Shown piece by piece: positions 8,634-40,014 of a DNA stretch of 40,014 nucleotides (positions are counted from its first letter, which is position 1; each line of letters starts with the position of its first letter). Source of the stretch: a virus; IMG/VR virus record IMGVR_UViG_3300030098_004836, positions 1 through 40,014 of that record, one strand, 5' to 3'. Position numbers and translations under genes: made by a program. The notes below the pieces were generated by a model. It ran no database searches. It saw nothing but the letters and a program-made list of their open reading frames with translations, and was not told where the DNA came from.

Positions 8634-9602
8634 ATGGCTACAGCACCAACATATATAACGCATAAAGAATTGAAAAGAATATTTCCTCAAATGGATGAGT
8701 TCGACCAAAAAGCTCCTATCTATGGTTGGGTAGAGGTAACAAGTAATAAATATGCTGCTCACGACAGCGGGCAAGTATCTCAATTATTTGCAGATGGAGA
8801 AGATTTAGGCGCAGCCCAATCAGCGCATACTGATTTAAATGTTGAAGGAGAATGGTTTTACAATTCGGCTGAAGACGTATGTTATTATTATTCAGCCAGC
8901 ACTCCATTAGACAAGTTAATGGAAGGAGGAGAAGAGTTTGTAGGTATGGTAACTCAATATAGAGCAGATGCAAGCCGATACTTTGACTCAAGAGTTGACC
9001 CTTCTTTACCAAGAGAACAGCTAAAAGATAAGTCGGGAAACTATGACTATATGGTTATAAGAACAGTTGGCTTAATTGCCGCTTCCTTTATGATAAAAAC
9101 AAAAGACCACGCTTCAGAATTAGCTGCATCTTTTATGGAAGAGGTAGAAAATAATTTAGCAATGCTAAATGAAGGAAAGGCTGCATTATCTTGGCAAAAC
9201 ACTTCAGATGCTTCGCAAGGAATTATAAGAGATATTGCTTATACAGGGGCATTAAGACCTGTAGATACAAGGGGAGAATATAGTGGGACTTGGGACTTAA
9301 TAAAATTAGATATAGGAACGGCTGGAGCTATAGGTACTGCAACATACAATGTATATGTCAAAGATGCTGATGGGCTAAAGCAAAATCAAGTTGTTACTGA
9401 TAAAAAAATAACAGGAGACTTTCAACCTCTTGTAGCTGGTTTGGAAATAAGATTTGCTGGAGCGGCAGACGACTCTGAGGCAGTAGCTACTGACGAGTGG
9501 GAAATTGAAGTGACAGGAAGGCAAGAATATGTCGATTCTTCAGATAGCAAAACTATTAAGCTAACAAGAACAGGAACTCCAAGCAGAAGGTACTATAAAT
9601 AA
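8634..9602 (+). CDS. Putative head-tail connector / adaptor protein, 322 aa
   Basis: The product has 322 residues. The N-terminal third (YITHKELKRIFPQMDEFDQK ...) and the middle (FDSRVDPSLPREQLKD, DYMVIRTVGLIAASFMIK) read like the helical adaptor (gp6/gp15-type head completion) proteins of siphoviruses. The C-terminal part (about 215-320) looks like an added beta domain. The next genes (tail terminator-like and major tail protein) support a neck role. The ribosome site GAGGAG lies at the end of the preceding ORF. Function is inferred mainly from order. Confidence 0.55.
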   Translation: MATAPTYITHKELKRIFPQMDEFDQKAPIYGWVEVTSNKYAAHDSGQVSQLFADGEDLGAAQSAHTDLNVEGEWFYNSAEDVCYYYSASTPLDKLMEGGEEFVGMVTQYRADASRYFDSRVDPSLPREQLKDKSGNYDYMVIRTVGLIAASFMIKTKDHASELAASFMEEVENNLAMLNEGKAALSWQNTSDASQGIIRDIAYTGALRPVDTRGEYSGTWDLIKLDIGTAGAIGTATYNVYVKDADGLKQNQVVTDKKITGDFQPLVAGLEIRFAGAADDSEAVATDEWEIEVTGRQEYVDSSDSKTIKLTRTGTPSRRYYK

Positions 9603-10051
9603 TGCCAGTAACTTTTACAAATAATTGGAAAAACATACTTGACAAGCTTAGAAATGTGTTAAGGACAGAATTTAAGGGAACGTTGCCAGTATTTATAGGC
9701 AATGAAATGAAAAATGAGGGAAGTCAATATTTAATGATTGAACCTTTAGGGACTGAGCTTATTGAGTATGCAAACACTTTTGAAATAAGAGAATTTAGTA
9801 TAAGCGTGTTTTATTATTTTGCTGAAAGAAATGTAAAGAAAACAGCATTAGACCACGTTTTAAGATACACGTCAAGAATTGAAGCACTAATACACGATAA
9901 TGTTAATATGACATATACTAATGAAAATTCTGTATCAGAAACTGCTTATAATTGCAGATTCGAAACATCAGAGTTTTTGCCAGACGAAGAGTCTGGAGTG
10001 TATGTGGTTCAATGGGAATGGAAATGCCTCCATAGAGGCAACTTATCATAA
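9602..10051 (+). CDS. Putative tail completion / terminator protein, 149 aa
   Basis: A 149-residue protein starting at ATG 9602 inside the preceding stop. The pattern, an N-terminal helix (WKNILDKLRNVLRTEF) followed by strands FEIREFSISVFYYF and YVVQWEWKCLHRG, fits the alpha/beta tail terminator fold that caps the tail tube. The gene lies directly before the major tail protein region, as is usual for this protein. No catalytic motif. Identification rests on size, secondary-structure pattern and context. Confidence 0.5.
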   Translation: MPVTFTNNWKNILDKLRNVLRTEFKGTLPVFIGNEMKNEGSQYLMIEPLGTELIEYANTFEIREFSISVFYYFAERNVKKTALDHVLRYTSRIEALIHDNVNMTYTNENSVSETAYNCRFETSEFLPDEESGVYVVQWEWKCLHRGNLS

Positions 10052-10066
10052 TAACAGGAGAAAAGA

Positions 10067-10288
10067 ATGAAATATAAAGCAAAACCATCATATGCTACTT
10101 TAGATAATACGGAAAACTTTATTTCTTTAAATTCTGCCTCTACCCATTTATTGTTGTTAGAAGGGCTTGAAGTTGAATTTAAAGGCAAAGTTTCTAAAGA
10201 CTTGTTAGAGCATTTAGAAAAAGTAGTTAAAGATAATAAACCAGAAGTTAAAAAAATAGTGACTTCTAAAAGTAAGGAGAATAAATAA
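10067..10288 (+). CDS. Small protein before the major tail gene, 73 aa
   Basis: A 73-residue protein with a good ribosome site (CAGGAG, 8 bases upstream of ATG 10067). The central segment (ASTHLLLLEGLEVEFKGKV) may form strands, and the C-terminus is Lys-rich. Such short proteins often sit next to connector or tail tube genes in marine phages. The stop overlaps the next ATG (TAATG), with its own AAGGAG ending serving as ribosome site for the major tail protein gene. Confidence 0.6.
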   Translation: MKYKAKPSYATLDNTENFISLNSASTHLLLLEGLEVEFKGKVSKDLLEHLEKVVKDNKPEVKKIVTSKSKENK

Positions 10289-11316
10289 TGGCTAAGAGTA
10301 CAAATTTTCAAACCAAAGCTGGTTCGAAGGTCACTATTGGAACTGAAGTTACAATGGGGACAGCTTGCTTGGCAAATGGGGTAACATTAGAAATGCCCTG
10401 CACAGATTATAGCTTTAGCGATATTGGTGGTGGCGGAATGTCTTTAGACGCAGCGCCTTTTAGAACGGGATTAGGTGGTTCTACGCAAAGCACTAATATG
10501 GTAAAAGCAAGAAGGTATGACAGAATGTGGGAAGTAAGTTTAACTTTTCACGCAACTGCACAAGCAATAGACAGAATATGTCTTGCAATGTTTGGAGACG
10601 GTGCAACTCCTAACGCACTTATTGGCAGTATGCCAGCGGCTACTAATTATGAACACAATGTCTCTAATATTGTTCCAGTAACAATTCACTTTCAAGATGG
10701 CGCTCACGCTGGAAATGGTACTGACATACATTTTATTAGCTGTATGTGTACTTCTTTCAGTCTTGCGGGAGACATTAGTTCTAATGGTGGTGTCGTGATG
10801 GGAACAGCTAATTTCGTAACTGCGTATGAACCTGTAGAGTCGGATTTAAATTTTACAGGAGGAACTCATACACTACTTACAGCCCAAACAACAATGTTCA
10901 ATATGAACGACTTAGCTACAACAACAGTAACGCCAAGCGGAGGAAGTGCTGAAGACCTTTGTTTATATTCTTTTAATGTTGATATAAATAGAAGTGTTAA
11001 TAGAGTTTCTTTTGACACGGCTTCAAACGCATTTAAGCCTGCGGGCTATGTTGTAGGCGGATATGAAGTTACAGGTTCTTTAACTTGTAAAAGAGATGAT
11101 GAGTCGGCATTAGCTCATCACTTTGTAGATACCGCTCAGCCAGTAGCTGCAATAGACCTTGACACAACAGTTTTTCAAGTCCAGCTTCCAACTGCATTGA
11201 TTGATAACACTTCAATTAATTTTGATGATGATGGCTGGAAAAATGTGATTGGTTTTAGAGGGGCTTATGATGGTGCTACTTCAAGCACTATAGTGTCTTA
11301 TGGAACTACTGCTTAA
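10288..11316 (+). CDS. Major tail (tube) protein
   Basis: The 342-residue product is a beta-rich protein with no membrane or enzymatic motif. It begins MAKSTNFQTKAGSKVTIGTE and has a tail-tube-like pattern: repeated strands, RRYDRMWEVSLTFHAT, YEVTGSLTCKRDD in the second half, typical of phage tail tube proteins with VTGSLTV-like strands. It is encoded immediately before a pair of ORFs that look like tail assembly chaperones and then the tape measure gene, which is the canonical siphovirus order. Confidence 0.75.
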   Translation: MAKSTNFQTKAGSKVTIGTEVTMGTACLANGVTLEMPCTDYSFSDIGGGGMSLDAAPFRTGLGGSTQSTNMVKARRYDRMWEVSLTFHATAQAIDRICLAMFGDGATPNALIGSMPAATNYEHNVSNIVPVTIHFQDGAHAGNGTDIHFISCMCTSFSLAGDISSNGGVVMGTANFVTAYEPVESDLNFTGGTHTLLTAQTTMFNMNDLATTTVTPSGGSAEDLCLYSFNVDINRSVNRVSFDTASNAFKPAGYVVGGYEVTGSLTCKRDDESALAHHFVDTAQPVAAIDLDTTVFQVQLPTALIDNTSINFDDDGWKNVIGFRGAYDGATSSTIVSYGTTA

Positions 11317-11341
11317 TAAACAATAACAAACGAGGATAAAA

Positions 11342-11626
11342 ATGAGAGAAATAAAGTTAGAAAATGGTAAAAAAGTAAAGCTTAAAGAGTTAAGTATAGA
11401 TGAAAGAGATTCATTAATGGATTCTTTAAAATTTACTAAGAATGACAAAGGCGAATTTGATGGTATGGAAATGCCTTATTCAACAATGACTAAGTTTATT
11501 AGAATAGGTGTTGATGGAGACACTTCAGACAAATTCCTAAAATCTTTAACATTAAAAGATAGGACTGATATTTTTGGTGCTATGCAAAAAGATATGTTAG
11601 AGGGGGAAGGGATGCCCTCCAAGTAG
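11342..11626 (+). CDS. Tail assembly chaperone, short form (gpG-like)
   Basis: A 94-residue protein, GAGGAT ribosome site 5 bases upstream. It begins with the typical chaperone-like MREIKLENGKKVKLKELSID and is helical afterwards. Position between tube protein and tape measure is where G/GT-type chaperones lie. The reading frame stops at 11624-11626, but the -1 frame is open from well before this stop to 12075, so a longer frameshift product is expected. Confidence 0.75.
   Translation: MREIKLENGKKVKLKELSIDERDSLMDSLKFTKNDKGEFDGMEMPYSTMTKFIRIGVDGDTSDKFLKSLTLKDRTDIFGAMQKDMLEGEGMPSK
11600..11611 (+). other. Candidate programmed -1 frameshift site
   Basis: The in-frame codons GAG-GGG-GAA-GGG precede the stop of the short chaperone by five codons. 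GGG at 11603-11605 can slip to GGG at 11602-11604. It is not a perfect X-XXY-YYZ heptamer, since the A-site Glu codon would re-pair poorly, so single-tRNA slippage is the more likely mechanism. The AGGGGGAAGGG purine run may also act as an internal Shine-Dalgarno-like stimulator. Confidence 0.4.
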
Positions 11627-12075
11627 AGCTTAATATACTTGGTAGTCCTTGCGAGGGCTGTAGATACCATAGTTTCCCATACGAGGCACTCTTGCCTTTA
11701 TATAAAGATGGGAAACGAATAAAAATGTCTTTTAATTCAAAAGATGATGTTTGGAGCGCTGTCGATTTATTAATCGATGACGCTCTGAACGCAAACACAA
11801 GTAAAAATAATGTGTCTTCTGCTATTATAGACCAGATACCTTTTTTTACCTGTGTTAACCATTTCTTTACAGACAGTATAAGAAAAGATATTGAAAGATA
11901 TATATATTGCGACCAATTTAAAGTTCCCCCTTATTTAGGGGATTATGGGCAACAACCATCTAAATGGGTTAAAAGAGCTTTTTTAATTAAAAATGCAATA
12001 GCTAAAAAAGAAAGTAAAGATATAGAAAAAATTAAAGCTGAGCAAAAAGCAAAAGCTAATAGCAAGAGGAGATAA
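11602..12075 (+). CDS. Tail assembly chaperone, -1 frame extension (gpT-like)
   Basis: This segment is in the -1 frame relative to the preceding ORF. It is open from upstream of 11602 to 12075 and has no ATG before 11725; the nearest possible independent start is TTG 11692. The region before that TTG still reads like protein (GSPCEGCRYHSFPYEALLPLY), which argues that translation arrives by frameshifting. The most likely slip point is the GGGGG run at 11602-11606 in codons GAG-GGG-GAA, where a Gly-tRNA on GGG can re-pair one base back. The C-terminus is Lys-rich. In long-tailed phages such G-GT fusions assist tape measure and tube assembly. Confidence 0.65.
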   Translation, partial: GGRDALQVELNILGSPCEGCRYHSFPYEALLPLYKDGKRIKMSFNSKDDVWSAVDLLIDDALNANTSKNNVSSAIIDQIPFFTCVNHFFTDSIRKDIERYIYCDQFKVPPYLGDYGQQPSKWVKRAFLIKNAIAKKESKDIEKIKAEQKAKANSKRR

Positions 12076-15000
12076 TGGCTAATAAAATTCAGATAAGATT
12101 TGAGGCGATAGGGGATAAGGCTTTAAGAAAGGCAATACAAGAACTTGCTAAAGCACAGGCTCAGCTTGAAAAAAATACTAAAAATTTAAACAAGGCAAAC
12201 AACGCCTTAAGCTCGGCTAATAATAAAGCTACTCAAGCAACCAATAATCACGCAAGGTCTCAAAAACTTATAAAACAAAGAGTTGAAAAGAATGTTCAAG
12301 CTTTTGGAAAACTTCAATCAACTTTAGCTGTTTATAGAAATAAGCTTTTACTCGCAGCCTTCGCAGCAACAGCTTTTAGGCAAACATTAGGAAGCCTTTT
12401 AGATGCTTATGCAAAACAGGAAGCGGCTGAAAGACAGCTTAGTGCAGTATTAGGAACAAGAAGCAGCAATTTATTAAAATTTGCCGCCGCTCAACAGCAG
12501 GTAACAATGTTTGGAGATGAAGTAACTATTCAAGCAATGTCTCAAACTGCCGCATTTATTAAAGATGAAGAACAAATTAAAGAGGTAATGAAAGCCTCTC
12601 AAGATTTAGCGACTTTATTTGGCTGGGATTTAAATACAGCGGCTCAATTAGTTACTAAAACTATCGCAAGTTCTACAAACGCACTTCAAAGATATGGTAT
12701 AGAAGTAGAGGGCGCAGTTGGTAGTGCAGCAAGATTTGAAAGCGTATTAAGCGCTGTAAACAATGTTGCAGGAGGCTTATCAGAAGAGATGGCTGGCACT
12801 TACACCTATGAAGTAGCTCAATTAGGAAATGCTTGGGGAGATTTAAAAGAAGAATTAGGAAAAGAACTTGCGCCTGTAATTACAAAATTAATAAGACTTA
12901 TTAAAGTTTTTGTTGAAGCGTTAGACCCTGAGAATATAAAAAGATTTATGATATCGTTAACTGCATCGGTGGTTGCTATGAAATCTTTTGCATTTGCTAC
13001 GGCAGGCGCATACACTAAAGGCAAAATGTTTGTTAGAGGAATGAGACTTATGAGCGTTGCTGCAAAAACATTTTCTAAAGCATTGAAAGCTGTTGCGTGG
13101 TTTACGGCTATAGATTTCTTAATACAGATGGCTTCTGCTACAAATAGAGTTAAGGGCGGATTTAATGATGCAACTACAGGAATACACGATTTTGATGCTG
13201 CTATAGAGCAACTTAGCTTAACAACTGGCGGCACAGAACAAACTATAGAGCATTTGCAACAAAAACTTGATAACTTAGAGTTTAAAAAAGAATGGGCTAA
13301 AGGCTGGGAAGAGTCTATGGCACAGGCGAAGAAAAATTGGGAAAGTACAGCGGGTATGCCAGCTTGGATGTCTAAAAGCTTAAATGCTGTAGGCGAATTT
13401 GTAGAAGACGCCATTCTTGACTGGTCTACACACGCTATAGCAGGGTTAGATAGAGTAGACTTAACTGATATTTTTGTTTTTGATAATGACGACAATATAA
13501 TTGATTTTACAGAGAGATTTCACGATATAGTGGTAGAAAAGTTTGGCAAAACTTACGATGAATTAAATGAAATGCAAAAAGCCTCACTTTTCAGAGGAAG
13601 TTTACAGCGACCTGATGCAGTAGGTTATATGGATTGGTCAGACATTAAGCCTGGCACTTTAGACTTTAAATGGGATGAAGGGCTTGTTTTTCAAGAAATA
13701 TTGGATGAAATTGAAAGAACAGAAGATATGTTGCGTGAGCTGGGAGCTATGCCAGATGCGGTAATAGAAGTGCCTGTTAAAGTCAAGCCAATAGTGACTA
13801 TGGATGATGATGATAAATTAGATGATACATTTAGAAAACTACTTCAAGAAGTAAGCGATTGGTATAAAATGAGAACAAAAATCCCTGAAGATAAATTAGG
13901 CGCAGATGTGTTTGAAAAAGCGTTCCCAGAATTACCTATTGAGGAGATAGGAGACGGGTGGGGAGTAGACATTGATAAATTGGTAGAAGTATTTGGAAGA
14001 AAGGCAGCTTTAGCGGATTGGATGGGAATTATTGATATTATTACAAGTGAAGTTGCAAAGCTTCCAGCCGCAATGGATGTCAATTTTGTCGAAGATATTA
14101 TTGTAAAAGCAATCGAAGTAGAATCTTATAAATTAGCAAATAAATTAGATAAAATTCCCGAACAGTTTAATACAATGTTTGACGGGCTAAACTTGTCAGA
14201 GTCTGAAAAGCTTAAAAAACAATTTGATATATATGAAAAACAGATAGAGAGCTATTTAATAGATATGATAAAAGTAGCCGATGCTGGGGCGTTTTCAGCG
14301 CATATAAATCCTGAACAATTCTTTAAAGATTGGACAAAAGATGCTGACCTAACAGGTGTTGACCAGATTGTAAAAAAATCAACGGAGACTTGGGTACAGT
14401 TTTTTGACAGAATGGGCAATTTGCACGATGGTGGGGCAGATATGGTCGCTGACTTTTTTGATACTTATGCCACTACGCTGCAAGACAAGGGGATTGCAAA
14501 TGTAGATGATTGGAAAAAATCTATTGATGAGTGGTTTAGCACGTCTGACCAAAAATTAAAAGATAACTCTAAGAGTGTAGATAATTTAATAAAAAATTAC
14601 CAAAAGAAAACAACTGCCATAGGTGAATTAAACCCAGCCATTGCAGAGTATAATACAGTTATAGAAAGCGCTACTAATATTACAGATAAAAATAAGAAAG
14701 AATTAAAAAAAGCTATTATTGCATATTATGAAGAAAAAAGAGTTATCGATAAAGTAAAAAGCTCAAGACAAGAATTATTAAGTATGATTCATTCGACAGA
14801 GATGGCTGAGCAAAGCCGTATAGCTACTTTACAGAACCAATTAGCCTTACTCGAATCAGTAACTGCCGCAGAATTAGACCAAAACACAAACGTTGCTGAT
14901 TTAGTTAAAAAATATAACGATTTAAATGGAGCTATAGACTTATATGCGTATACCTTGGGAAGTAGTTTTGTTGAGTCTAATGAATTAGCTTTGCAAGAAT

Positions 15001-15716
15001 TGGAAATAGTCAAATTAGAACTTGAAGCATTAAAAAAGCATTTTGAAGGCAATGCTGAAATGGTTGATTATTTAGATAGAGCTTTGCAAGGAGTAGAAAA
15101 ATCGGCATCAAGACTTAGCGCAGAGTTTATAAATTTAAGCGAGTGGGGCGACACGTTAACTACAGCGCTAAGTGGTATTGCTTCAGCGGCTGATGCAGCA
15201 GCTTGGTCTGGAGAGCATATGGGAAGAGCTATGGAACAGGCAATTCAAAGAATGGTTAGTATTATAGCTGCTAAGCTTGTGGTCTTTGCAACGTTTTTTG
15301 CTATATTATCAGGAATAGGTTTGGTTCAAACTGGCTCGCTTGCGGGTGGTCAAACTTTATTATATAATTTAACGGGGGGAGGTTTCTGGGAATCTTTTGC
15401 TAATTTTGCATTTCACAAAGGCGGAAAAGTAAAAGGCTATAGCGTAGGAGGGCAAGTAATGCCTTTATACCATTCTGGCGGAGGGGTTGACGATGTTCCT
15501 GCTATGCTTCAAGAAGGCGAATTTGTTATGCAAAGGAGCGCTGTTGACTCTATAGGTCTTGAAAATTTAAACAGAATGAATAGAACAGGGCAGTCTCAAA
15601 GTGGTGTTAATATTTCTTTTTCTGGAAACGTTTTAAGTCGTGATTTTATTGAAGAAGAAGCTATTCCTAAAATTAAAGATGCAATCCGAAGGGGTGCAGA
15701 TATAGGGATTGGGTAA
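12075..15716 (+). CDS. Tape measure protein, 1213 aa
   Basis: The longest helical protein in the genome and located right after the chaperones. Residues 15-85 are coiled coil (AIQELAKAQAQLEKN ...), with hydrophobic segments at about 88-108, 290-330 and 1060-1090 that fit the membrane-active parts of tape measures. The C-terminus (from about 1115) carries the familiar GGxV...SGGGVDDVPAMLQEGEFVM motif followed by S-A-V. It would set the length of a non-contractile tail and take part in DNA delivery; using the usual 0.15 nm per residue, about 180 nm (inference). The start overlaps the preceding stop (TAATG). Confidence 0.9.
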   Translation: MANKIQIRFEAIGDKALRKAIQELAKAQAQLEKNTKNLNKANNALSSANNKATQATNNHARSQKLIKQRVEKNVQAFGKLQSTLAVYRNKLLLAAFAATAFRQTLGSLLDAYAKQEAAERQLSAVLGTRSSNLLKFAAAQQQVTMFGDEVTIQAMSQTAAFIKDEEQIKEVMKASQDLATLFGWDLNTAAQLVTKTIASSTNALQRYGIEVEGAVGSAARFESVLSAVNNVAGGLSEEMAGTYTYEVAQLGNAWGDLKEELGKELAPVITKLIRLIKVFVEALDPENIKRFMISLTASVVAMKSFAFATAGAYTKGKMFVRGMRLMSVAAKTFSKALKAVAWFTAIDFLIQMASATNRVKGGFNDATTGIHDFDAAIEQLSLTTGGTEQTIEHLQQKLDNLEFKKEWAKGWEESMAQAKKNWESTAGMPAWMSKSLNAVGEFVEDAILDWSTHAIAGLDRVDLTDIFVFDNDDNIIDFTERFHDIVVEKFGKTYDELNEMQKASLFRGSLQRPDAVGYMDWSDIKPGTLDFKWDEGLVFQEILDEIERTEDMLRELGAMPDAVIEVPVKVKPIVTMDDDDKLDDTFRKLLQEVSDWYKMRTKIPEDKLGADVFEKAFPELPIEEIGDGWGVDIDKLVEVFGRKAALADWMGIIDIITSEVAKLPAAMDVNFVEDIIVKAIEVESYKLANKLDKIPEQFNTMFDGLNLSESEKLKKQFDIYEKQIESYLIDMIKVADAGAFSAHINPEQFFKDWTKDADLTGVDQIVKKSTETWVQFFDRMGNLHDGGADMVADFFDTYATTLQDKGIANVDDWKKSIDEWFSTSDQKLKDNSKSVDNLIKNYQKKTTAIGELNPAIAEYNTVIESATNITDKNKKELKKAIIAYYEEKRVIDKVKSSRQELLSMIHSTEMAEQSRIATLQNQLALLESVTAAELDQNTNVADLVKKYNDLNGAIDLYAYTLGSSFVESNELALQELEIVKLELEALKKHFEGNAEMVDYLDRALQGVEKSASRLSAEFINLSEWGDTLTTALSGIASAADAAAWSGEHMGRAMEQAIQRMVSIIAAKLVVFATFFAILSGIGLVQTGSLAGGQTLLYNLTGGGFWESFANFAFHKGGKVKGYSVGGQVMPLYHSGGGVDDVPAMLQEGEFVMQRSAVDSIGLENLNRMNRTGQSQSGVNISFSGNVLSRDFIEEEAIPKIKDAIRRGADIGIG

Positions 15717-18700
15717 TGATAGAAAGTTCAGCTCAGTTTATACGTACGTTATCTAAGACATCTAATTATATATATTATATTGTTCACCTAAATTCAAGCC
15801 AAAACGATAAATCAAAACATATATTTATATCTAATAAAAAAACTTCTAATTTTATAGACCCTGAATGTTCTGGCTTTTTAGATTTAGATTTAAAAGTTTC
15901 CCCTATAAAAGAAAGCATAAATCTGCAAGAAAAAAGCTTTAATACTAATAAAATATCTTTTTCTGTCTCCAACTCAGATAGTAAGGGAAAAAGCTTTACC
16001 GACCTTTTGTATAACACTAATTTTCAGGGAGCTGAATTAAAAATTTATATAGCGTCTGATGGAAGCGAAAGTGTAGATGATTGTGTTAATATATTCACAG
16101 GATATATTACGCAAGTTCAATCAGACTCTAAAAGGTGTGAAATATCCGCTGAAGACTATTCTTCATATACATTTAAAGAAAAAACTATACCAAAAAGAAA
16201 AAACCAGCAATCTACGCAAGAGCTTATAGACGGAAACGAAAACATACCGATTCCTATGGTTTATGGTCAAGTTGAAAACTCTAAAATGTTAATGACAAGA
16301 CCGCACATAAACAACTTAAAATCATATATATATCCCGACGCAGTTGACCAAGGAATAAATATTCTCGGATTTTCTACTGATTATAAAGCTTTGCAAATCT
16401 TTAGAGATAAGCTTTATTTAGATATTCCTCAAATATTTCAAGAAGTTGGTGCGGAGGACGACCCTTTAATTATTAACGGAATTAACTATAATTTGCTTTA
16501 TGTAGGCACACCTCAATATGAGATTGAGCAAGACCATATTCTTATAGAAAAAAAGATGTCTGGAAATTCTTTTACAGAGGGGATGCCATTAAATATACAG
16601 GCAAGAGAGCAGTTTCAGGTAGATGTTGAAAGAACCCCTTCAGGAATACAGCCCACATCTTCAGACTCAGTTCTTACATACGGGTATAATAATGAACAAG
16701 AAATAACATTTAACGGACACCAAAACGGATATAATATAAGCGATGGAGCAACATCGTGGAATTTTCCTCTTCCAACCGAAGGAATTCCTATAAGCTATCG
16801 TGAAAACATAGTTGTGGGACATATAACAAGAAAATTAGATAATGGAACGAGCGGAGAAGATTCTGGCTCTATTTGGTGGGTAAACGAGTATCTTAATCAC
16901 TCTAAACTTATGAATCAATATGACCCTAATGGATTTGGGGTAATAGAGATAGTTAGGCATCCTTCCGCAGATGAAGTAGCTGAAGTCTTAAACTTGCCAG
17001 ATGGCTATTACGGTCACGGCGAGATGAAAGTAAAAATATACGTTTGGAGACAAACGAGCGGTACTGGAGCATATATAGGACGTGTTTATCCGTATTGGTG
17101 GTGGACACAGTTGCCTGACCTTGAAGATTTGCAAGGCGCTGATAGTTTGTACGATTTTTGGAACGGGATAGCGGGAGAATGGATAAGAGATTATTTTAAG
17201 GGAGAGCTAAAGTATGCGTGGTCTACTGATGTTGTTGTTCGACACCCCTCTATTCAAGCTCTTAACTTAGGGACTTTGGGTAATTGGCTTAATATAGAAC
17301 AAGACTTTCAGCAATTTGAGATGGTTTATGGATATTCTTTTACAGATGGTCAAGATATTATAAAAATTAGGTTAGACGAAGACCTAACAGAGCAATTTGG
17401 CTCTGGGGCGGCATACCTTCCAAATTCAATATTAGGCGGTAAGGGTAGCTGGATAACAACTAATTCGTGTGGAGATGGGCTTCAATCAACTCCAAACCCC
17501 AGCACCTCAAATCAACGTCAATTTGCGTCAGAGATACCAGATTTAATAGGAGAGTGGGGAGCGCACGGTTCTCAAGGATACTATTATTGTTACGCAAATG
17601 GTTATCGTGTACCAACATTAAGAAAGTTTCTATATGGAAGAAGAATAACGGAAGACGAACATACGGAGACTGGGGGCGCTATTCCTTTAGGCACTTGGGT
17701 ATATGGAATTTTTCCAATAATCGGAGCTTTTAATCCTAAACACTTTAATCAAAGTGATGAGGATTCTTCTGGAGGAATGTATGTTTATGATATGGTTGGA
17801 GATGGTTGCTTGGCTTACGGAAACCCTTATTTTTACGGAGCAAGAAACCTTGAAACAGGCGAATACTACGAAAGTGGCAGTTATAATTTTGGTACTATGA
17901 GAATAGATGAGCTTAATGTTATTGAGTTTGAGGCAACTCCTAATGTTGCTATAAACGCTGACCATCAATGGGCAATAGGAATCCATAATAACTTTGGATA
18001 CGGATTTGGAAAATTAATTACAGATTGGTGGTGTCATACTCCTGGTTGGAATCAGTATGAGAGCGACCAACACCCTAACGGAGCAGCCCACAACATTAGA
18101 CCTGTTATAAAAAGTATTGGAAATTTAGCGCAAACAGGCGGAAGTTATTGCCCTATTCAATATACTGACGGCTTGGCTACAGCAGTTAAGATGGATATTA
18201 CATTTAATTCTGTGACTGGCTCAGATATAATACAAGGCTCAGTATACTCTATGTTTAAATGCAAAATAGATACCGAGTTTTCTTTGTTAGAGGTTGGAGA
18301 TTCCTCTGATGACCCAGCTAAAAACGTAGATTTTTTAGTTGAAGCCGATTGTTTTAAAATTAGAAGCGGACAGGGAAAAGGACATAATGACATTATAAGA
18401 AAAGAAAAGGTTAATACGCTTCCATTAACAAATATCCAAATTCAAACTGTTACCGACCATAACGGAAATACTTGGGACGAAGCGGTTGCAACAAACCCAT
18501 ATCATTGGAATACTGGAAGAGAACCAGAAGGCGAGGAATTAGGAAGCGTTTGGGACGAATATTTAACCGACACTAATTTAAATCTATCTTCTTGGATTGA
18601 TGATGAAGGAGTTCCTCAAACTGACCCAACTACAGTTATGAACGAATGTGATTCACACGAAGTTACCCCTGAAGATATACAAGCAGGTCGTGTAAATGCT

Positions 18701-30055: not shown

Positions 30056-30090
30056 AAAAAAAAGCGGGGCTTTTACGCCCCGCAATTTTT
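30056..30090 (-). terminator. Strong bidirectional intrinsic terminator
   Basis: GCGGGGC (30064-30070) pairs with GCCCCGC (30077-30083), a 7-bp stem with a 6-base loop. It is bordered by eight A on one side and TTTTT on the other, so it works on both strands in principle. It starts right after the amidotransferase stop codon at 30091 and should end the leftward enzyme transcript. Confidence 0.9.
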
Positions 30091-30873
30091 CTAAACGTTC
30101 ATTCCGTTGAAAGCGTCGTCACATTCTACGCAAACACGATAAGACCCGTTTCCGCTCAAGTCTCTTAAGTCATTCGTTGAGACGTTACAATAATCACATT
30201 TTTCAAGCTTAGCAAAATCGTCTGTAATACCGCTAAATTTAGACTTTTTAAGCTTTAATGACTTACCCTTAGGCTTTAACGTTATCGGCTTGTAATTGTA
30301 GCCGTAAGACCACCCACAAGCGACCGCACCGCCCGAAGACTTGTAACTGTTATTCGAATACCAAACGTTTCCGTTCCAATGTCCTAAATTCTCGTTAATA
30401 ATTGTGAAATCATTTTGAGAATTTAAGAAGACAAGTTTAGAATGTCCGATAAAATCGCCAATTAGCTTTCTTGTTGCTTTGTAGCTTAAGAAATCGGTCG
30501 GCAAATCTTGTAAGATATCTCTATTAAAAACTTGAGTATCTGACAGTTTTTTATCGTCTTTAACGTTGTGAATCATACCGTTATGAGCAAAAACCAAGTC
30601 TTCCGACACCTTAAACGGATGCACGTTAAAAGTGCCTTCATTCGTGCCGTGTGTACTCAGTCTAAAATGCACAATAAAATTTGACTCTTGATTGTGCAAA
30701 ACGTCGCCCTCGTACTGTTTAAAAAACTTAGAAAACTTTCTAAATTTTTTAGTTGTGATTTTGCCGTCTCTGACAAAGCTATATCCGACCCCGTCACGAT
30801 TGCCGTTAAAAGCCGTTTGCAATGATTCCTTTTCGATATGTCCGTCTTTCTTTTTAAGTATTAGTAAACACAT
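30091..30873 (-). CDS. Class II glutamine amidotransferase with C-terminal zinc ribbon
   Basis: A 260-residue Ntn-type glutaminase. C2 directly after Met is the nucleophile; further family motifs are NRDGVGYSF (N25, D27), VHFRLSTHG (R71), NVHPF (H85) and FAHNG (N98-G99). It would release ammonia from glutamine and hand it to a partner enzyme, here most likely the neighbouring amidoligase. The C-terminus carries C226-x2-C229 and C248-x2-C251, a zinc ribbon. The ribosome site is AAGGGG. Codon use is richer in CpG and in GAC/ACG codons than other genes. It ends at a strong terminator and is preceded by a hammerhead ribozyme. Confidence 0.85.
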   Translation of the reverse strand: MCLLILKKKDGHIEKESLQTAFNGNRDGVGYSFVRDGKITTKKFRKFSKFFKQYEGDVLHNQESNFIVHFRLSTHGTNEGTFNVHPFKVSEDLVFAHNGMIHNVKDDKKLSDTQVFNRDILQDLPTDFLSYKATRKLIGDFIGHSKLVFLNSQNDFTIINENLGHWNGNVWYSNNSYKSSGGAVACGWSYGYNYKPITLKPKGKSLKLKKSKFSGITDDFAKLEKCDYCNVSTNDLRDLSGNGSYRVCVECDDAFNGMNV

Positions 30874-30992
30874 TGTTCACCCCTTTGAAAACTTATTGTT
30901 TCCCGTTAATTGTCTGTTATTTTGTTATCTGTTATTATCCTTCACGTTTCGACCTCGTCCGTCGGATAATCAATTTATGTCAAAAAGCTTTC
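30874..30992 (-). other. Leader between ribozyme and amidotransferase gene
   Basis: The 120-base stretch downstream of the ribozyme cut (on the minus strand) has three ATAACA repeats near 30915-30940, and no ORF. It would be the 5' leader with a 5'-OH end if the ribozyme cleaves. It contains the ribosome site for 30873. Confidence 0.5.
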
Positions 30993-31067
30993 GGTCTGTC
31001 TCATCAGTTCGGGGCGACCACCCCACCGAAGACCCGCCAAAATCGACTAAATAAGGCGGGTTTCGAC
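30993..31067 (-). ncRNA. Type II hammerhead ribozyme
   Basis: On the minus strand, 5' to 3': GTC (31067-31065), GAAA (31064-31061), stem III CCCGCC (31060-31055) with GGCGGG (31038-31033) and a 16-base loop, U (31032), C17 (31031), stem I TTCGG (31030-31026) ... CCGAA (31012-31008), core CTGATGA (31007-31001) and GAC (31000-30998) that pairs with the opening GTC as stem II. All invariant core residues (CUGAUGA, GAAA, UH) and the 10.1-11.1 G-C pair are present. Stem II can be extended by CT/AG and GG/CC with bulges. The permutation with open stem II defines type II. Predicted cut: between 31031 and 31030. Confidence 0.9.
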
Positions 31068-31093
31068 TTTAGCCTTGTTAGGCTATGGGAAAC

Positions 31094-31127
31094 GGGCGAA
31101 ACGGCTTTAAAATAACCATATTCGCCC
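31094..31127 (-). other. Hairpin after the amidoligase stop
   Basis: GGGCGAA (31094-31100) pairs with TTCGCCC (31121-31127), 7 bp with a 20-base loop. It has no U-run on the transcribed side and lies between the amidoligase stop and the ribozyme. A second perfect hairpin, TAGCCT-TGTT-AGGCTA at 31070-31085, follows. Together they would protect the 3' end of the amidoligase message after self-cleavage. Confidence 0.65.
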
Positions 31128-31135
31128 AAAAACCG

Positions 31136-32686
31136 CTAAATCCTCACACGTTGAGCGGGGAAGTTCAAAAAGCTTTCTCCCCAATTTTGAGCCTTTACCC
31201 AAGAAACCAAGTTCTCAAATTTGCCCGACTCCTCGACGTGTTTCCAATATTTTTTAAAGTCTAAAAAGTTCGTCAAGTCTGAGACCTTCGCCCACTCTCT
31301 CATCGACTCGGCAAACTCAATATTTTTTCTGAACGTTTGTTCATTCATTGAAGACCTAAATATTCGTAGTTCTAACGTCTGACGATTTGAAAAGTTAGTT
31401 GCCAAATATCTGTCGTCCCCGACCGCTAACGTCTTAAGGCTTGCGAAATCTGTCGTCCCGTTGTTTCTGTCATATCTAAACTGATACGTCAAAGTCTCGG
31501 AAACCATTCCCGCAATATTATCCGAGAATTTAGCCCATTGACGTAATTTATCCGCCGAACGTTGAGACACTTTAAAAGCAAACCCTTTCCAATGATTTAA
31601 GAATTTGGCGATTTTGTACTGATTCAGACCCGACATTGTCGAACGGTTTAAGTGGACGTGAATCCCGCAAGATTTCGACACGTTCCACCCTAAAATCTGA
31701 CCTCTCAATTTGAACAGTTCTTCGAAGCCGTAAGACGTGAAAAACTCGTAACTCATCGGGTGAGATACAATCTCGACACCCGTTCGACCGTTGCCGTTAA
31801 TTGAGCCGTCGTTTACACAAAACAAGAATCCGCCTTCTAATGTGTTATTAATTTTTGAGACGACTTTTTGTTGGTCAAATCTCGTCAAGCCTTCTTTGAA
31901 TTGTACCTCTAATTCAAAGCCAAGTAAATCTTTATCGGCTCTTAAATTCTCTCTAACGATAGACCCGTTTAAAACGTCCCAACAAAATAATTCGGGTTTA
32001 TGCCCATATCCACGAATACCCGTTGGTATATCGTAATCACAATCCCGACAAATCCCGCCGTCTGTCTCAGTTTGAAGAAGGTCGTCACGATGAAAACGGT
32101 CTCCGCACGATATACAATCCGAGAATAAACTCTCATAATTTGAAAGTTCATATATTCGACCGTTTGCCGACGTCGAATTAAAATTCTCAACGTTGTAATA
32201 TCGCCCGTCAGATGCACATCTAAAAAATTGGCTCATATATTTACGGTCAATTTTATGAGCCGTGACCGTTCTTACACCGTCCCCGCCTTCTATTCTATTT
32301 AAAACAAACGTCCCCCTCTGATAAATAAAAGTCTCCTCAGAAGACACACCGCAAACGACGGGTAAGGCTCTCAAGTAATCTGTATCGCCGACCTCAAAAA
32401 ATCCGCCTATAAATCTATCAATTAAAAACGTGTTAAATTGGTTTTCAATCGAAGACGTTAGACTTGAAACCTCTCTTGATACGTCTATTAATTGCTCAAA
32501 ATCTATATAGGCTAAGCCGTGAGGCAATCCAATTTCGTGAATCCCGTCGTCGTTAGTGATTCGCAAACCGTGTATCTTACTATATGTCCGCCCTTCGATT
32601 GTTGCGATACCGTAACGTCTTGTCCCGTCTACGTTTCCGTTAATGATGCTTAATTTAGTTCCTTTAATATATATTTGGTTTCCCAT
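31136..32686 (-). CDS. Amidoligase (COOH-NH2 ligase, glutamine-synthetase-like fold) with zinc ribbon
   Basis: ATG 32686 is chosen for its AAGGAG 5 bases upstream; an in-frame start at 32746 would put the start at the likely transcription start. The 516-residue protein has an N-terminal domain (1-185), a zinc ribbon (C191-x2-C194, C213-x2-C216) and then the amidoligase core: LGFELEVQF (256-263), NDGSI (292-296), GVEIVSHP (303-310), SCGIHVHLNRS (339-349) and LELRIFRSS (438-446), the motifs expected for the ATP/Mg2+ site. Such enzymes join amines to carboxylates in peptides or proteins, often with a glutaminase partner. The target is unknown. Confidence 0.85.
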   Translation of the reverse strand: MGNQIYIKGTKLSIINGNVDGTRRYGIATIEGRTYSKIHGLRITNDDGIHEIGLPHGLAYIDFEQLIDVSREVSSLTSSIENQFNTFLIDRFIGGFFEVGDTDYLRALPVVCGVSSEETFIYQRGTFVLNRIEGGDGVRTVTAHKIDRKYMSQFFRCASDGRYYNVENFNSTSANGRIYELSNYESLFSDCISCGDRFHRDDLLQTETDGGICRDCDYDIPTGIRGYGHKPELFCWDVLNGSIVRENLRADKDLLGFELEVQFKEGLTRFDQQKVVSKINNTLEGGFLFCVNDGSINGNGRTGVEIVSHPMSYEFFTSYGFEELFKLRGQILGWNVSKSCGIHVHLNRSTMSGLNQYKIAKFLNHWKGFAFKVSQRSADKLRQWAKFSDNIAGMVSETLTYQFRYDRNNGTTDFASLKTLAVGDDRYLATNFSNRQTLELRIFRSSMNEQTFRKNIEFAESMREWAKVSDLTNFLDFKKYWKHVEESGKFENLVSWVKAQNWGESFLNFPAQRVRI

Positions 32687-32752
32687 TTTTACTCCTTTCT
32701 CTCGTCGAGAATTTGTTATTGTTTCGTTAATCTTGCCGTCAATCATACCTAT

Positions 32753-33586: not shown

Positions 33587-33739
33587 ATGAAGAAACCTTT
33601 GAACTCATTGGGAGGGGGCAAGGGTAAAAAGCAGACTCACTCGTCTAAAAGATGGCAAAAAACGAAGAAAGCGATAGATAAAGCATCTGATAGCGGGAGA
33701 CTGTGGTGGATAGAGCAATACTTGAGAAAAACATTATGA
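33587..33739 (+). CDS. Small basic protein before the terminase gene, 50 aa
   Basis: From ATG 33587 the frame encodes MKKPLNSLGGGKGKKQTHSS and a basic helical end (RWQKTKKAID ... LWWIEQYLRKTL). There is no clear ribosome site. The stop overlaps the ATG of the terminase small-subunit gene (ATGA), which suggests coupling. The frame is open to 33437, so a longer product is possible. Function unknown. Confidence 0.4.
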   Translation: MKKPLNSLGGGKGKKQTHSSKRWQKTKKAIDKASDSGRLWWIEQYLRKTL

Positions 33740-34374
33740 CAGATTTAATAAAACGACCTTTAGTACAAAAAGCAATACAATTATTCGTACAAGAACCTAA
33801 TATTACCGCACAAGAAGTAGCAAAGCGATTAGAAGTGTCTACTGCCTTAGTATATAATTGGAAACAGAACCCTAACTTTGTAGATGCTATATATGATAAG
33901 TATATGGTAGAGTTCGGCTCAGAATTACCTGCTGTTTTACAATCTATGATACGAGAAGCTAAGGCTGGCAATGTTCAAGCTGGAAGACTTGTATTAGAAC
34001 ATAGTGGTAAGTTAGTTAAGAACGTAAATATAACAGTTGATAGTCCTTATGAGAAGTTTTTAAAAGCAGATAAGGCTGAAATAGAGTTTGAAGACGCTGA
34101 AATAGAAGAGATAGTTGAATCTGTTCCAGATATAAAGGTAGATTTGCCTAAAAGAAAAAAGGAAGACCAAAGCGAGCGTGCGGTCGAGGAAAAAAAGAAT
34201 CTAAAGAAGGCTATAAAAAAGGGGGAGGCAAATAAAAAAAGAACTGAATGGCGTAAATGGAAAAAAAGAGCCAAAGCAGTAGGTTTAGAGCCTCTACCTG
34301 CCAGAAGACCTACTCCTGCTCAAAAAGAAGCGTGGATTAATGAAATCAAAGAAAAAGAAAACAAACAAAGATAG
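33736..34374 (+). CDS. Terminase small subunit-like protein (HTH), 212 aa
   Basis: ATG 33736 is chosen because of the ATGA overlap with the previous frame. Residues 8-60 (VQKAIQLFVQEPNITAQEVA KR.EVS.ALVYNWKQNPNF) form a helix-turn-helix of the phBC6A51/small-terminase type, followed by AVLQSMIREAKAGNVQAGRL VLEHSGK, the oligomerisation helices of this family. The C-terminal 100 residues are extremely Lys/Glu-rich. It would recognise packaging DNA and deliver it to the large subunit. The gene is in the expected place before the packaging genes, which are however inverted. Confidence 0.8.
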   Translation: MTDLIKRPLVQKAIQLFVQEPNITAQEVAKRLEVSTALVYNWKQNPNFVDAIYDKYMVEFGSELPAVLQSMIREAKAGNVQAGRLVLEHSGKLVKNVNITVDSPYEKFLKADKAEIEFEDAEIEEIVESVPDIKVDLPKRKKEDQSERAVEEKKNLKKAIKKGEANKKRTEWRKWKKRAKAVGLEPLPARRPTPAQKEAWINEIKEKENKQR

Positions 34375-35413: not shown

Positions 35414-35627
35414 ATTCTTCTCCTAATTTTCGAGCTTCTATAATTTTATGCGCATATTGGACAATTGCGGCTTCGGCTATCGCCTCAGCCCACTTTTTAG
35501 GGTCTTTTATAATATCGGAAACATCGCCCTTTAAATCAACATTTATATTATCTTTGAGGTTCTTTATTTTGCTGACGTACTCTTTCAAAGATTGACTGTT
35601 CTTTGTTTTGTTGTTTGTTTTCTGCAA
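35388..35627 (-). CDS. Small helical protein after portal, 79 aa
   Basis: The start TTG 35627 lies within the portal 3' end and has GGAG 7 bases upstream. The product (LKEYVSKIKNLKDNINVDLK ... KKWAEAIAEAAIVQYAHKII) is helical and Lys-rich. It overlaps the portal gene by 80 bases and the gp10-like gene by 26. It could be a small head or connector component. Both overlaps suggest strong coupling. Confidence 0.6.
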   Translation of the reverse strand: MQKTNNKTKNSQSLKEYVSKIKNLKDNINVDLKGDVSDIIKDPKKWAEAIAEAAIVQYAHKIIEARKLGEEFGNKIKTK

Positions 35628-36852
35628 TTATTTTCTCCGCTTCTTTTAAAGATAAGTCATCGTTTTGCTCAACCAATAACTTAGCTTGGGTTGTTAAATT
35701 GTTTTCAAGCCTATGATTGTCCCAAAGTATTTGGTCTTGCATTGTTTTAGGGTACTCAGGCTCATTAAAGTCTAATTTAAGGCTTTCTGGCAACTTAATG
35801 CCATTGTAATCAGCAATCTCTCTTTCGATGTTATATAATTCGTGTTCATACATTTTCCAAAGCTCTAAATCGTCTTGATAGTCTTCAAATCTTTCTAAGT
35901 CCTTAATTTTTAAAGCTATCCCGCTTGGTACTTCTCCTCCATCTTGCGCAAATTGAACAAACAAGTGATTATTTTGCGCTACTAAGTCAACTTGAAACTT
36001 AACAGTCTCAATAACTGATTGCAAGTCTGCTTCAGGGGCTACTATATCAAATACAGAGCCTTCAGGTAAGTCTAAAATAGTATCAGAGCCAGCTCTCTCT
36101 AATTTCTTTTGATTTTGAAGCCCTGTAACATAAGGCTGACCAAACATTTGAAATCTTAACCCTAATTGAAGCTCAGTCATAGTGATATTGACGTGTTCAT
36201 TACAAGAAACTATATCATCTGCCCCATCTACAAAGAAAGAATCAATTTGGTTCTCTCTATGTGTAAATAAAAATGGAAGAACTCCGTATCCGTGTTCATA
36301 TTCTCCAGAAAGATTGCCATCTTCATCATATTCGGCATATATAGAATTATCCCAATAAGCATACTTTAATTTCTCTGTATAAGAGACATCGTTCACGTTT
36401 CCAAGTATAGGATACATTATAGCTTCTGGTTTAAAAGGATTATCTCCAAGATGAACATCAAAATAATAAACAGGAATGTAATCAAAATAAGGCATATCGC
36501 CATCTCTATATACAATTTGCGTTGCCACACTTCCAACTAAACGAGTCATTCTTTCAATGTGCTTCATTCTTGCGTCTTTTACGGTAGTTAAGCTTTTATA
36601 AGCAGGGTTCACATTCCTATTTGCTCCTACATTATATATTCGGCTCATTTTGTTAATAAATCTTCTTGTAAAATTAGCTTCATAGCAAGGGACTTCCCTA
36701 AATGCGTCTGCATCAAAATATCTGTTTATATATTTTGTAGTGTTTGTCCCGCAATAATAATCTATAAGCTTTCTAACATAATCTCTTCTCGCCTTCGCTT
36801 GAGATTGCTTAAAGTCTTGTATTGAATTTTGTATTATTTGTTCTACTGTCAT
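35548..36852 (-). CDS. Portal protein (SPP1-type)
   Basis: A 434-residue protein with the general features of phage portals: a helical N-terminus (VRKLIDYYCGTNTTKYINRY), 'Y.ANFTRRFINKMSRIYNVG', a stem region with GSDTILDLPEGSVFDIVAPE, and a C-terminal helical part (NEPEYPKTMQDQILWDNHRL, then a Gln/Glu/Lys tail). The portal ring is the entry point for DNA and the docking site for terminase and neck. It begins 4 bases inside the terminase gene end (overlap), so the two are coupled. It is read leftward, unlike the capsid genes. Confidence 0.85.
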   Translation of the reverse strand: MTVEQIIQNSIQDFKQSQAKARRDYVRKLIDYYCGTNTTKYINRYFDADAFREVPCYEANFTRRFINKMSRIYNVGANRNVNPAYKSLTTVKDARMKHIERMTRLVGSVATQIVYRDGDMPYFDYIPVYYFDVHLGDNPFKPEAIMYPILGNVNDVSYTEKLKYAYWDNSIYAEYDEDGNLSGEYEHGYGVLPFLFTHRENQIDSFFVDGADDIVSCNEHVNITMTELQLGLRFQMFGQPYVTGLQNQKKLERAGSDTILDLPEGSVFDIVAPEADLQSVIETVKFQVDLVAQNNHLFVQFAQDGGEVPSGIALKIKDLERFEDYQDDLELWKMYEHELYNIEREIADYNGIKLPESLKLDFNEPEYPKTMQDQILWDNHRLENNLTTQAKLLVEQNDDLSLKEAEKIIAENKQQNKEQSIFERVRQQNKEPQR

Positions 36853-38799: not shown

Positions 38800-39957
38800 A
38801 TGTTTAACTTAACTTTTGAAGGTCAAAATCCTTGGATTCAATCTGGTGTTGATTTTAATGTCACATCAAGAATTCAGATGAATTTGTCCGCAACAAACAA
38901 TGTTGCACTTGCTGGTGGTTTACAGGACTCTGATGCTGCTACTGCTTCGCTTCAGGAATTTATTCCCGAAATATGGGGTGCATCAATACAAGACTATATG
39001 GTAAAAAATCTTGTATTCGGAGCGCTTTGTAACGACCAATCAGCTTTAGTTGCAGGCGGTGGAGACAGAATCCATCTACCAAGACATAGTGAATTAACTG
39101 CATCTGACACCTACGGTGGCGGAACAGTTGCTGTAGAAACTTTGATTGGAACAAATTTAGCCTTTAGTGCAACTGGCGATGCTGAAGATGCTTACACTTT
39201 AGACATCAATCAAGGTATTCATAGTGCAATTTCAATCACAGATGTTGCGAAAGTACAATCAAGCTATGATGTAATGAATCTTTATACATCTAAACTTGGT
39301 TATGCCTTAGGTAAAAAAATCGACCAGTATATAGCTACATTATTGTTTCAGGCTGTTTCTTTCAATTATGCGGGCGCAACAGCCGATGGAAATAGTGCAG
39401 GAAACACAATCGAACTAAATGATGCTCACGATGAACAACATATAGAGGCAGTTGGTGTTTCTAATATGCTACAAGCTATATATGAAAATGATAGTAATAT
39501 TGAGGACTATGTAATGATTCTTGTTCCTAAAGTATATGCAAGTCTATTTAAGTTAGCTGACTTTGCAAGATACGATGGAATTGGAAACTCGTTAGGCAGT
39601 CAAGTTCCTTTTATAAGCGGCTTTGCGGGCAAGCTTGGTGGGGTTGAAGTTATTGTATCTAATAACTTTATGCACTACTCTTCAGGCTCAACTTTAGCTC
39701 AAACATCAACCCCTAAAGGAAACTTTAGTTCAAATAGTGTTGATGATGAAAGTGAATTCCTATTGGGTTACTTAGTTCATAAAGATGCTATGCATATTGC
39801 ATACTCTTCTGGATTGAAAGCAAGAGTTCAAAGTGACTACCACCTACCTTCATTATCTACAAGATTTGTTGCAGATAGCGTTTATGGTGCTTTAGTTACT
39901 GGAAATACTACAGCAGGAAACAAAAAAGTTTTCGCATTAGTTAGTCCAGCTTCATAG
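38800..39957 (+). CDS. Major capsid protein, complete copy
   Basis: A 385-residue protein with an AGGAG ribosome site. It begins MFNLTFEGQNPWIQSGVDFN and includes QEFIPEIWGASIQDYMVKNL, a pattern of HK97-fold capsid proteins of marine phages ('f.pe.w..e....l.....f'), and later SSYDVMNLYTSKLGYALGKK and the C-terminal FALVSPAS. It follows the scaffold gene. Identity is supported by context and by being the most conserved part of the window between its two copies. The partial copy at 1-992 is homologous but different. Confidence 0.9.
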   Translation: MFNLTFEGQNPWIQSGVDFNVTSRIQMNLSATNNVALAGGLQDSDAATASLQEFIPEIWGASIQDYMVKNLVFGALCNDQSALVAGGGDRIHLPRHSELTASDTYGGGTVAVETLIGTNLAFSATGDAEDAYTLDINQGIHSAISITDVAKVQSSYDVMNLYTSKLGYALGKKIDQYIATLLFQAVSFNYAGATADGNSAGNTIELNDAHDEQHIEAVGVSNMLQAIYENDSNIEDYVMILVPKVYASLFKLADFARYDGIGNSLGSQVPFISGFAGKLGGVEVIVSNNFMHYSSGSTLAQTSTPKGNFSSNSVDDESEFLLGYLVHKDAMHIAYSSGLKARVQSDYHLPSLSTRFVADSVYGALVTGNTTAGNKKVFALVSPAS

Positions 39958-40014
39958 TAAGCTATAAATTAAGGGGGTGGGAAACTGCCCCCTTATAAAC
40001 AGGAGAAAAAATGA
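39938..40014. repeat. 77-base exact direct repeat, copy 2 (window end)
   Basis: The final 77 bases equal 973-1049. The last four bases (ATGA at 40011-40014) are the start of the small gene found at 1046. Joining both ends gives a circle of 38,965 bases in which 38800-39957 is the capsid gene and the small gene at 1046 follows. Confidence 0.9.
39970..39995 (+). other. GC-rich hairpin after the capsid gene, second copy
   Basis: TAAGGGGG pairs with CCCCCTTA in the same sequence as at 1005-1030. It is within the exact 77-base terminal repeat. Confidence 0.7.

Follow-up and report, generated by a model that had tools for sequence, protein, structure and literature searches.

A type II hammerhead ribozyme between the amidoligase and glutamine amidotransferase genes of a phage

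The window analyzed here is a 40,014-nucleotide stretch of viral DNA (IMG/VR record IMGVR_UViG_3300030098_004836), in which an amidoligase gene and a class-II glutamine amidotransferase (GATase) gene lie next to each other on the minus strand, amidoligase first. The amidoligase gene (31136-32746) encodes 536 amino acids and matches Amidoligase_2 (PF12224) at 26 bits, above the cut-off of 22, as well as phrog_2443. The GATase gene (30091-30873) encodes 260 amino acids and scores 23 bits against PF13522, just under the cut-off of 27; the assignment is nevertheless supported, as the protein is 33-35% identical to phage relatives in MEP401 and MEP402 and begins with a Met-Cys that is invariant among relatives, as expected for an N-terminal nucleophile. 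One of these relatives, MEP402 gp07, is annotated as a 'putative glutamine amidotransferase'. Both families have been reported in the OM43 phages MEP401 and MEP402, in a study that cites earlier proposals of a role in cell-wall modification or metabolite synthesis (PMC10580990). The gap between the two genes measures 262 nt and holds a type II hammerhead ribozyme, oriented along both genes, 70 nt past the amidoligase stop and 127 nt ahead of the GATase start. Also on the minus strand are a hairpin past the amidoligase stop (31094-31127, found by folding, with no U-run and absent from the terminator list), a short hairpin directly 5' of the ribozyme (31070-31085), a hairpin in the GATase leader (30934-30970) and a Shine-Dalgarno-like AAAGGGG ahead of the GATase start (30880-30886). 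A bidirectional intrinsic terminator is predicted past the GATase gene (30064-30083), and no sigma-70-type promoter is predicted on the minus strand within the gap. A DNA-level search of known phages found nothing similar to the locus.

The Rfam family Hammerhead_II (RF02276) matches positions 31068-30990 of the minus strand at 57.3 bits (gathering score 37), with an E-value of 2.1e-9 across the whole 40-kb window and all 66 model positions covered. It is the sole Rfam family above cut-off in the window by cmscan; the intergenic region otherwise gives only sub-threshold chance matches (RF_site1, sX5). The conserved core is complete, with CUGAUGA (31007-31001), GAAA (31064-31061; G12, A13, A14 and A15.1) and U16.1-C17 all present. 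C17 lies at 31031, and by homology the cut is predicted to fall after it, between 31031 and 31030. Stem III (31061-31032) has seven base pairs, formed by A15.1+CCCGCC (31061-31055) and GGCGGG+U (31038-31032), and is closed by a 16-nt loop. Stem I and its loop (31030-31008) have five pairs between TTCGG (31030-31026) and CCGAA (31012-31008). Stem II is the open end (31067-30998), with GTC (31067-31065) facing GAC (31000-30998). Stems I and III are thus loop-closed and stem II is open, as a type II hammerhead requires. An earlier note, made from the letters alone, had read a complete type II hammerhead here and suggested a check with the Rfam model; every core base and stem that it named lies where it was placed, and the model agrees. 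What that account lacked is a pseudoknot (31020-30992), read from sequence pairing, between UGGUC in loop I (31020-31016) and GACCG in the 3' tail (30996-30992). A loop-tail pseudoknot of this kind is important for fast cleavage (PMC3088659). Taken together, the covariance model, core, stems and pseudoknot support the assignment of the motif as a genuine type II hammerhead.

A survey of viral type II hammerheads can reveal which features of the window copy are general. A motif scan returned at least 120 stretches, which after removal of repeats left 113 distinct viral sequences among the matches listed; with the window and five sequences from later scans, these make up a comparison set of 119. 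Across the set, compensating changes preserve nearly every pair that varies in stems I and III, and the window conforms, retaining seven, five and three pairs in stems III, I and II. Compared with the usual form of RF02276, the window shares the core, the open stem II, the closed stems I and III, the conserved UGGU loop and the tail pseudoknot; it differs in its 16-nt stem III loop and in its 3-bp stem II (GUC/GAC), where the second pair is U-A (T-A in the DNA) and G-C in most other instances. Its pseudoknot is also of a less common type, GGUC with GACC in place of GGUU or GGUG with AGCC. Loops with GGUC go with GACC tails in 3 of 5 listed sequences, as against 9 of the other 108 (Fisher p 0.008, on only five such loops), and the window has the same combination. 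The mean pseudoknot length of 4.84 lies above all 500 tail shuffles (mean 4.72, sd 0.04), although only slightly, as both the loop side and the tail side are nearly invariant.

The survey also bears on where these ribozymes sit. Placement was scored as intercistronic when the stop of an open reading frame of at least 40 codons lay no more than 12 nt from CGAAAC and, 6-60 nt past CTGATGA, there was a start preceded by a purine-rich leader. Such a stop-ribozyme-start order on the same strand was found for 99 of the 113 listed sequences, which come from partly related phages and are not fully independent cases, whereas random positions in the same loci gave 3.4%; intercistronic placement is therefore the rule. 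The spacing is near-fixed, with the stop usually 1-2 nt ahead of CGAAAC and the start most often 15, 18 or 19 nt past CTGATGA. This tight packing of stop, ribozyme, Shine-Dalgarno sequence and start puts the pseudoknot tail right beside the ribosome binding site in the listed hammerheads. The window copy, at 70 and 127 nt, falls outside the compact pattern (stop within 12 nt, start within 60 nt). Most of the 97 upstream and 99 downstream neighbors have no Pfam match, and an amidoligase or GATase was recognizable in none of these 196 genes of the listed examples. Families that could be recognized include HU-like DNA-binding proteins, DUF2786/DUF7168, GemA, DUF3164, Gam and Mor, several of which are typical of Mu-like phages. 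The earlier remark that phage hammerheads often lie near endolysin genes is not borne out in this sample, since HU-like, DUF2786/DUF7168, GemA, Gam and Mor are the recognizable neighbors and the published account names integrase genes and prophages (PMC3088659).

How the gene pair is arranged elsewhere is the second comparison. Searching viral contigs with the amidoligase or the GATase as a single protein gave no matches; a search with a GATase alignment succeeded and yielded 80 loci, which together with four annotated phages make 84 records. The amidoligase lies directly upstream of the GATase in 63 of these, and in 56 of the 63 the gap is at most 43 nt, with frames that overlap or touch in most pairs, leaving no room for a ribozyme. 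For example, the pairs of MEP401 and MEP402 (PMC10580990) have the same families, order and strand as the window, but their frames overlap by 10 nt and no hammerhead is present, and the amidoligase locus of mycobacteriophage Marvin, again with the same families, order and strand, has a gap of 79 nt and no hammerhead. No type II hammerhead was detected in any of the 84 records (E 0.01), and two positive controls in a second run were detected; nor did the seven pairs with wider gaps contain any Rfam family above cut-off when all families were scanned. Four of the records (L126, L127, L128 and L129; L139 nearly duplicates L129) come from the family of the window phage itself, with terminases at 58-60% identity and the protein at 35548-36852 at 49-54%, and their gene-pair gaps are 21-34 nt with no hammerhead. 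As far as sampled, then, the 262-nt spacer with its ribozyme appears specific to the window's lineage. Since 56 of the 63 pairs overlap or lie close and none of the 84 records, the four same-family phages included, carries a hammerhead, the ribozyme seems to be a lineage-specific gain, one that would uncouple a normally coupled pair. The location between amidoligase and GATase genes, which the earlier note had proposed, is strengthened by this comparison, because most relatives have overlapping or almost touching frames. It also offers a natural experiment, with the same gene pair with and without a ribozyme inside one phage family.

The reading we consider likely is that the hammerhead self-cleaves the minus-strand message between the two frames, and that it probably cuts a shared amidoligase-GATase message in two. 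The pair would be co-transcribed and the RNA cut after C17 (31031). On the upstream side, the stem III hairpin would become the end of the amidoligase mRNA, which would carry a 2',3'-cyclic phosphate and a 3' tail of 105 nt. On the downstream side, the GATase mRNA would start at the stem I hairpin with a 5'-OH and a leader of 157 nt, so that a type II cut would give each new end a hairpin. The two halves would be degraded independently, thereby breaking the coupling of translation that overlapping frames in the relatives suggest, and the two genes could be controlled separately. Whether the 5'-OH would stabilize or destabilize the GATase half depends on the RNases of the host: 5'-OH ends resist some 5'-sensing enzymes, but are open to attack in hosts with RNase J. 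The terminator-like site lies past the second gene of the pair, and the sampled relatives of the pair have no such ribozyme. Splitting is supported by the intercistronic placement of 99 of the 113 listed examples, by the 56 of 63 related pairs that leave no room for a ribozyme, and by the finding that triple hammerheads of A. tumefaciens were active in living E. coli after cloning (PMC3088659). Counting against it are a competing fold, a spacing to stop and start that is looser than usual, the failure to find any ortholog of the ribozyme at an amidoligase-GATase junction that could show conservation, and the absence of cleavage in 4 of 18 consensus hammerheads that were tested (PMC3088659).

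Alternatively, the hammerhead could be a passenger, active or formerly active, that came with a gene cassette in a variable region and has no role for the pair; this is less likely. Relatives with terminase large subunits (TerL) at 76-93% identity share the packaging genes with the window phage, and the genes past a helix-turn-helix (HTH) gene (33703-34374) downstream of the packaging genes, the region where the pair lies, differ from phage to phage. No amidoligase or GATase was found in the sequence pieces of these relatives that were examined, many of which are fragments. In that variable region, one relative (L222, TerL 87%) carries a type II hammerhead (16455-16507 of its contig, 28.2 bits, under the Rfam cut-off), between other small genes, with a stop 1 nt ahead of CGAAAC and a start 30 nt past CTGATGA. 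It is the only one of 80 TerL relatives with a type II hammerhead signal. Judging from these sequences, type II hammerheads occur in this phage group, but are rare and change neighbors. The loose spacing of the window copy could likewise be the remnant of a lost neighbor gene. However, the core bases, three stems and pseudoknot are all intact, which decay would not favor, and the ribozyme, as in the other examples, is intergenic and on the coding strand. At the ends of the window, positions 1-1049 and 38969-40014 align over their full length at 81% and hold divergent versions of the major capsid gene, one at each end, with 80% protein identity and 3' ends that are nearly identical over about 90 nt; they could be tandem capsid genes or the product of a strain-mixed circular assembly.

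A second alternative is a ribozyme that cuts slowly or conditionally. The motif CCGAA occurs twice in the ribozyme, at 31012-31008 and again in the tail at 30994-30990, so the 5' strand of stem I (31030-31026) has two rival partners. Plain minimum-energy folding did not give the hammerhead fold: the pseudoknot cannot be drawn by this method, and the tail pairing, which ties up the strand beside the cleavage site, is chosen instead. The fold was for this reason compared with those of other type II hammerheads. As isolated RNA, and with pseudoknot energy left out, the active fold lies 4.3 kcal/mol above the best one; the median gap for the other 113 listed hammerheads is 1.2 kcal/mol, and only 2.7% have one as high as the window. 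In this model the competing fold may mean slower or conditional cleavage, or nothing at all given the omitted pseudoknot energy. That a ligand, ion or helicase decides whether the RNA is cut is improbable: nearest-neighbor energies omit the pseudoknot, which would make up several kcal/mol, co-transcriptional folding may lead to a different outcome, and the alternative pairing cannot be shown to be conserved. It is a long shot, too, that the duplicated CCGAA switches the RNA between cleaving and non-cleaving folds, with self-cleavage setting the amidoligase:GATase ratio, but such a switch would be a naturally regulated hammerhead of a bacterial virus. A chance resemblance with no ribozyme function can be set aside as very improbable, for although the hammerhead is a small motif and not every consensus match is active (PMC3088659), this one has an E-value of 2.1e-9 in the window, is intergenic, lies on the right strand and has the pseudoknot.

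Cleavage of the shared message as favored here has precedents. Phage hammerheads, which the earlier note took as established, were described in 2011 as lying on either side of single phage genes and cutting polycistronic transcripts (Perreault et al. 2011, PMC3088659), and a 2017 review summarizes phage type II hammerheads and treats the function of prokaryotic and phage hammerheads as an open question (PMC6155905). The clustered prophage hammerheads of Perreault et al. (PMC3088659) likewise lie between genes of a polycistronic message and were proposed to process it; the window differs in having a single copy, in the amidoligase-GATase pair, and in not compactly abutting stop and start. The earlier claim that splitting a two-enzyme message of this kind had not been described therefore holds in part: no paper joining hammerhead ribozyme, phage and amidoligase was found in a search that mostly did not reach subscription papers, but polycistronic phage hammerheads had been reported in 2011 (PMC3088659). 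The kind of ribozyme and its use by phages are already known; the location between amidoligase and GATase is new.

Several phages carry many more copies. In one metagenomic phage contig (L290, IMGVR_UViG_3300017605_000570, 9500-18200), 24 type II hammerheads pass the Rfam cut-off within 7.6 kb of a single strand, a ribozyme at nearly every gene junction; most of them come directly past a stop codon and are followed by an AGGTG-type leader and a small gene's start. Cultured phages of Streptomyces from the Arquatrovirinae also have them: Marav (L291, OQ995441.1), Salutena, BartholomewSD, Omar and TinaBelcher (L292-L295) carry 9-13 each in their small-gene region. Every one of the 13 in Marav falls between annotated genes, and most are 10-20 nt ahead of a start. 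None of Marav's 13 is annotated, no ribozyme appears in the annotation tables of the Streptomyces-phage stretches viewed, and no paper joining hammerhead ribozymes and actinobacteriophages was found among those searched. The strict stop-ribozyme-start placement of most viral type II hammerheads surveyed, together with these Streptomyces phages, makes the mRNA-processing hypothesis testable in cultured phages. Another phage contig with a type II hammerhead (L206) also carries a RAGATH-28 RNA (8875-8959, 63 bits).
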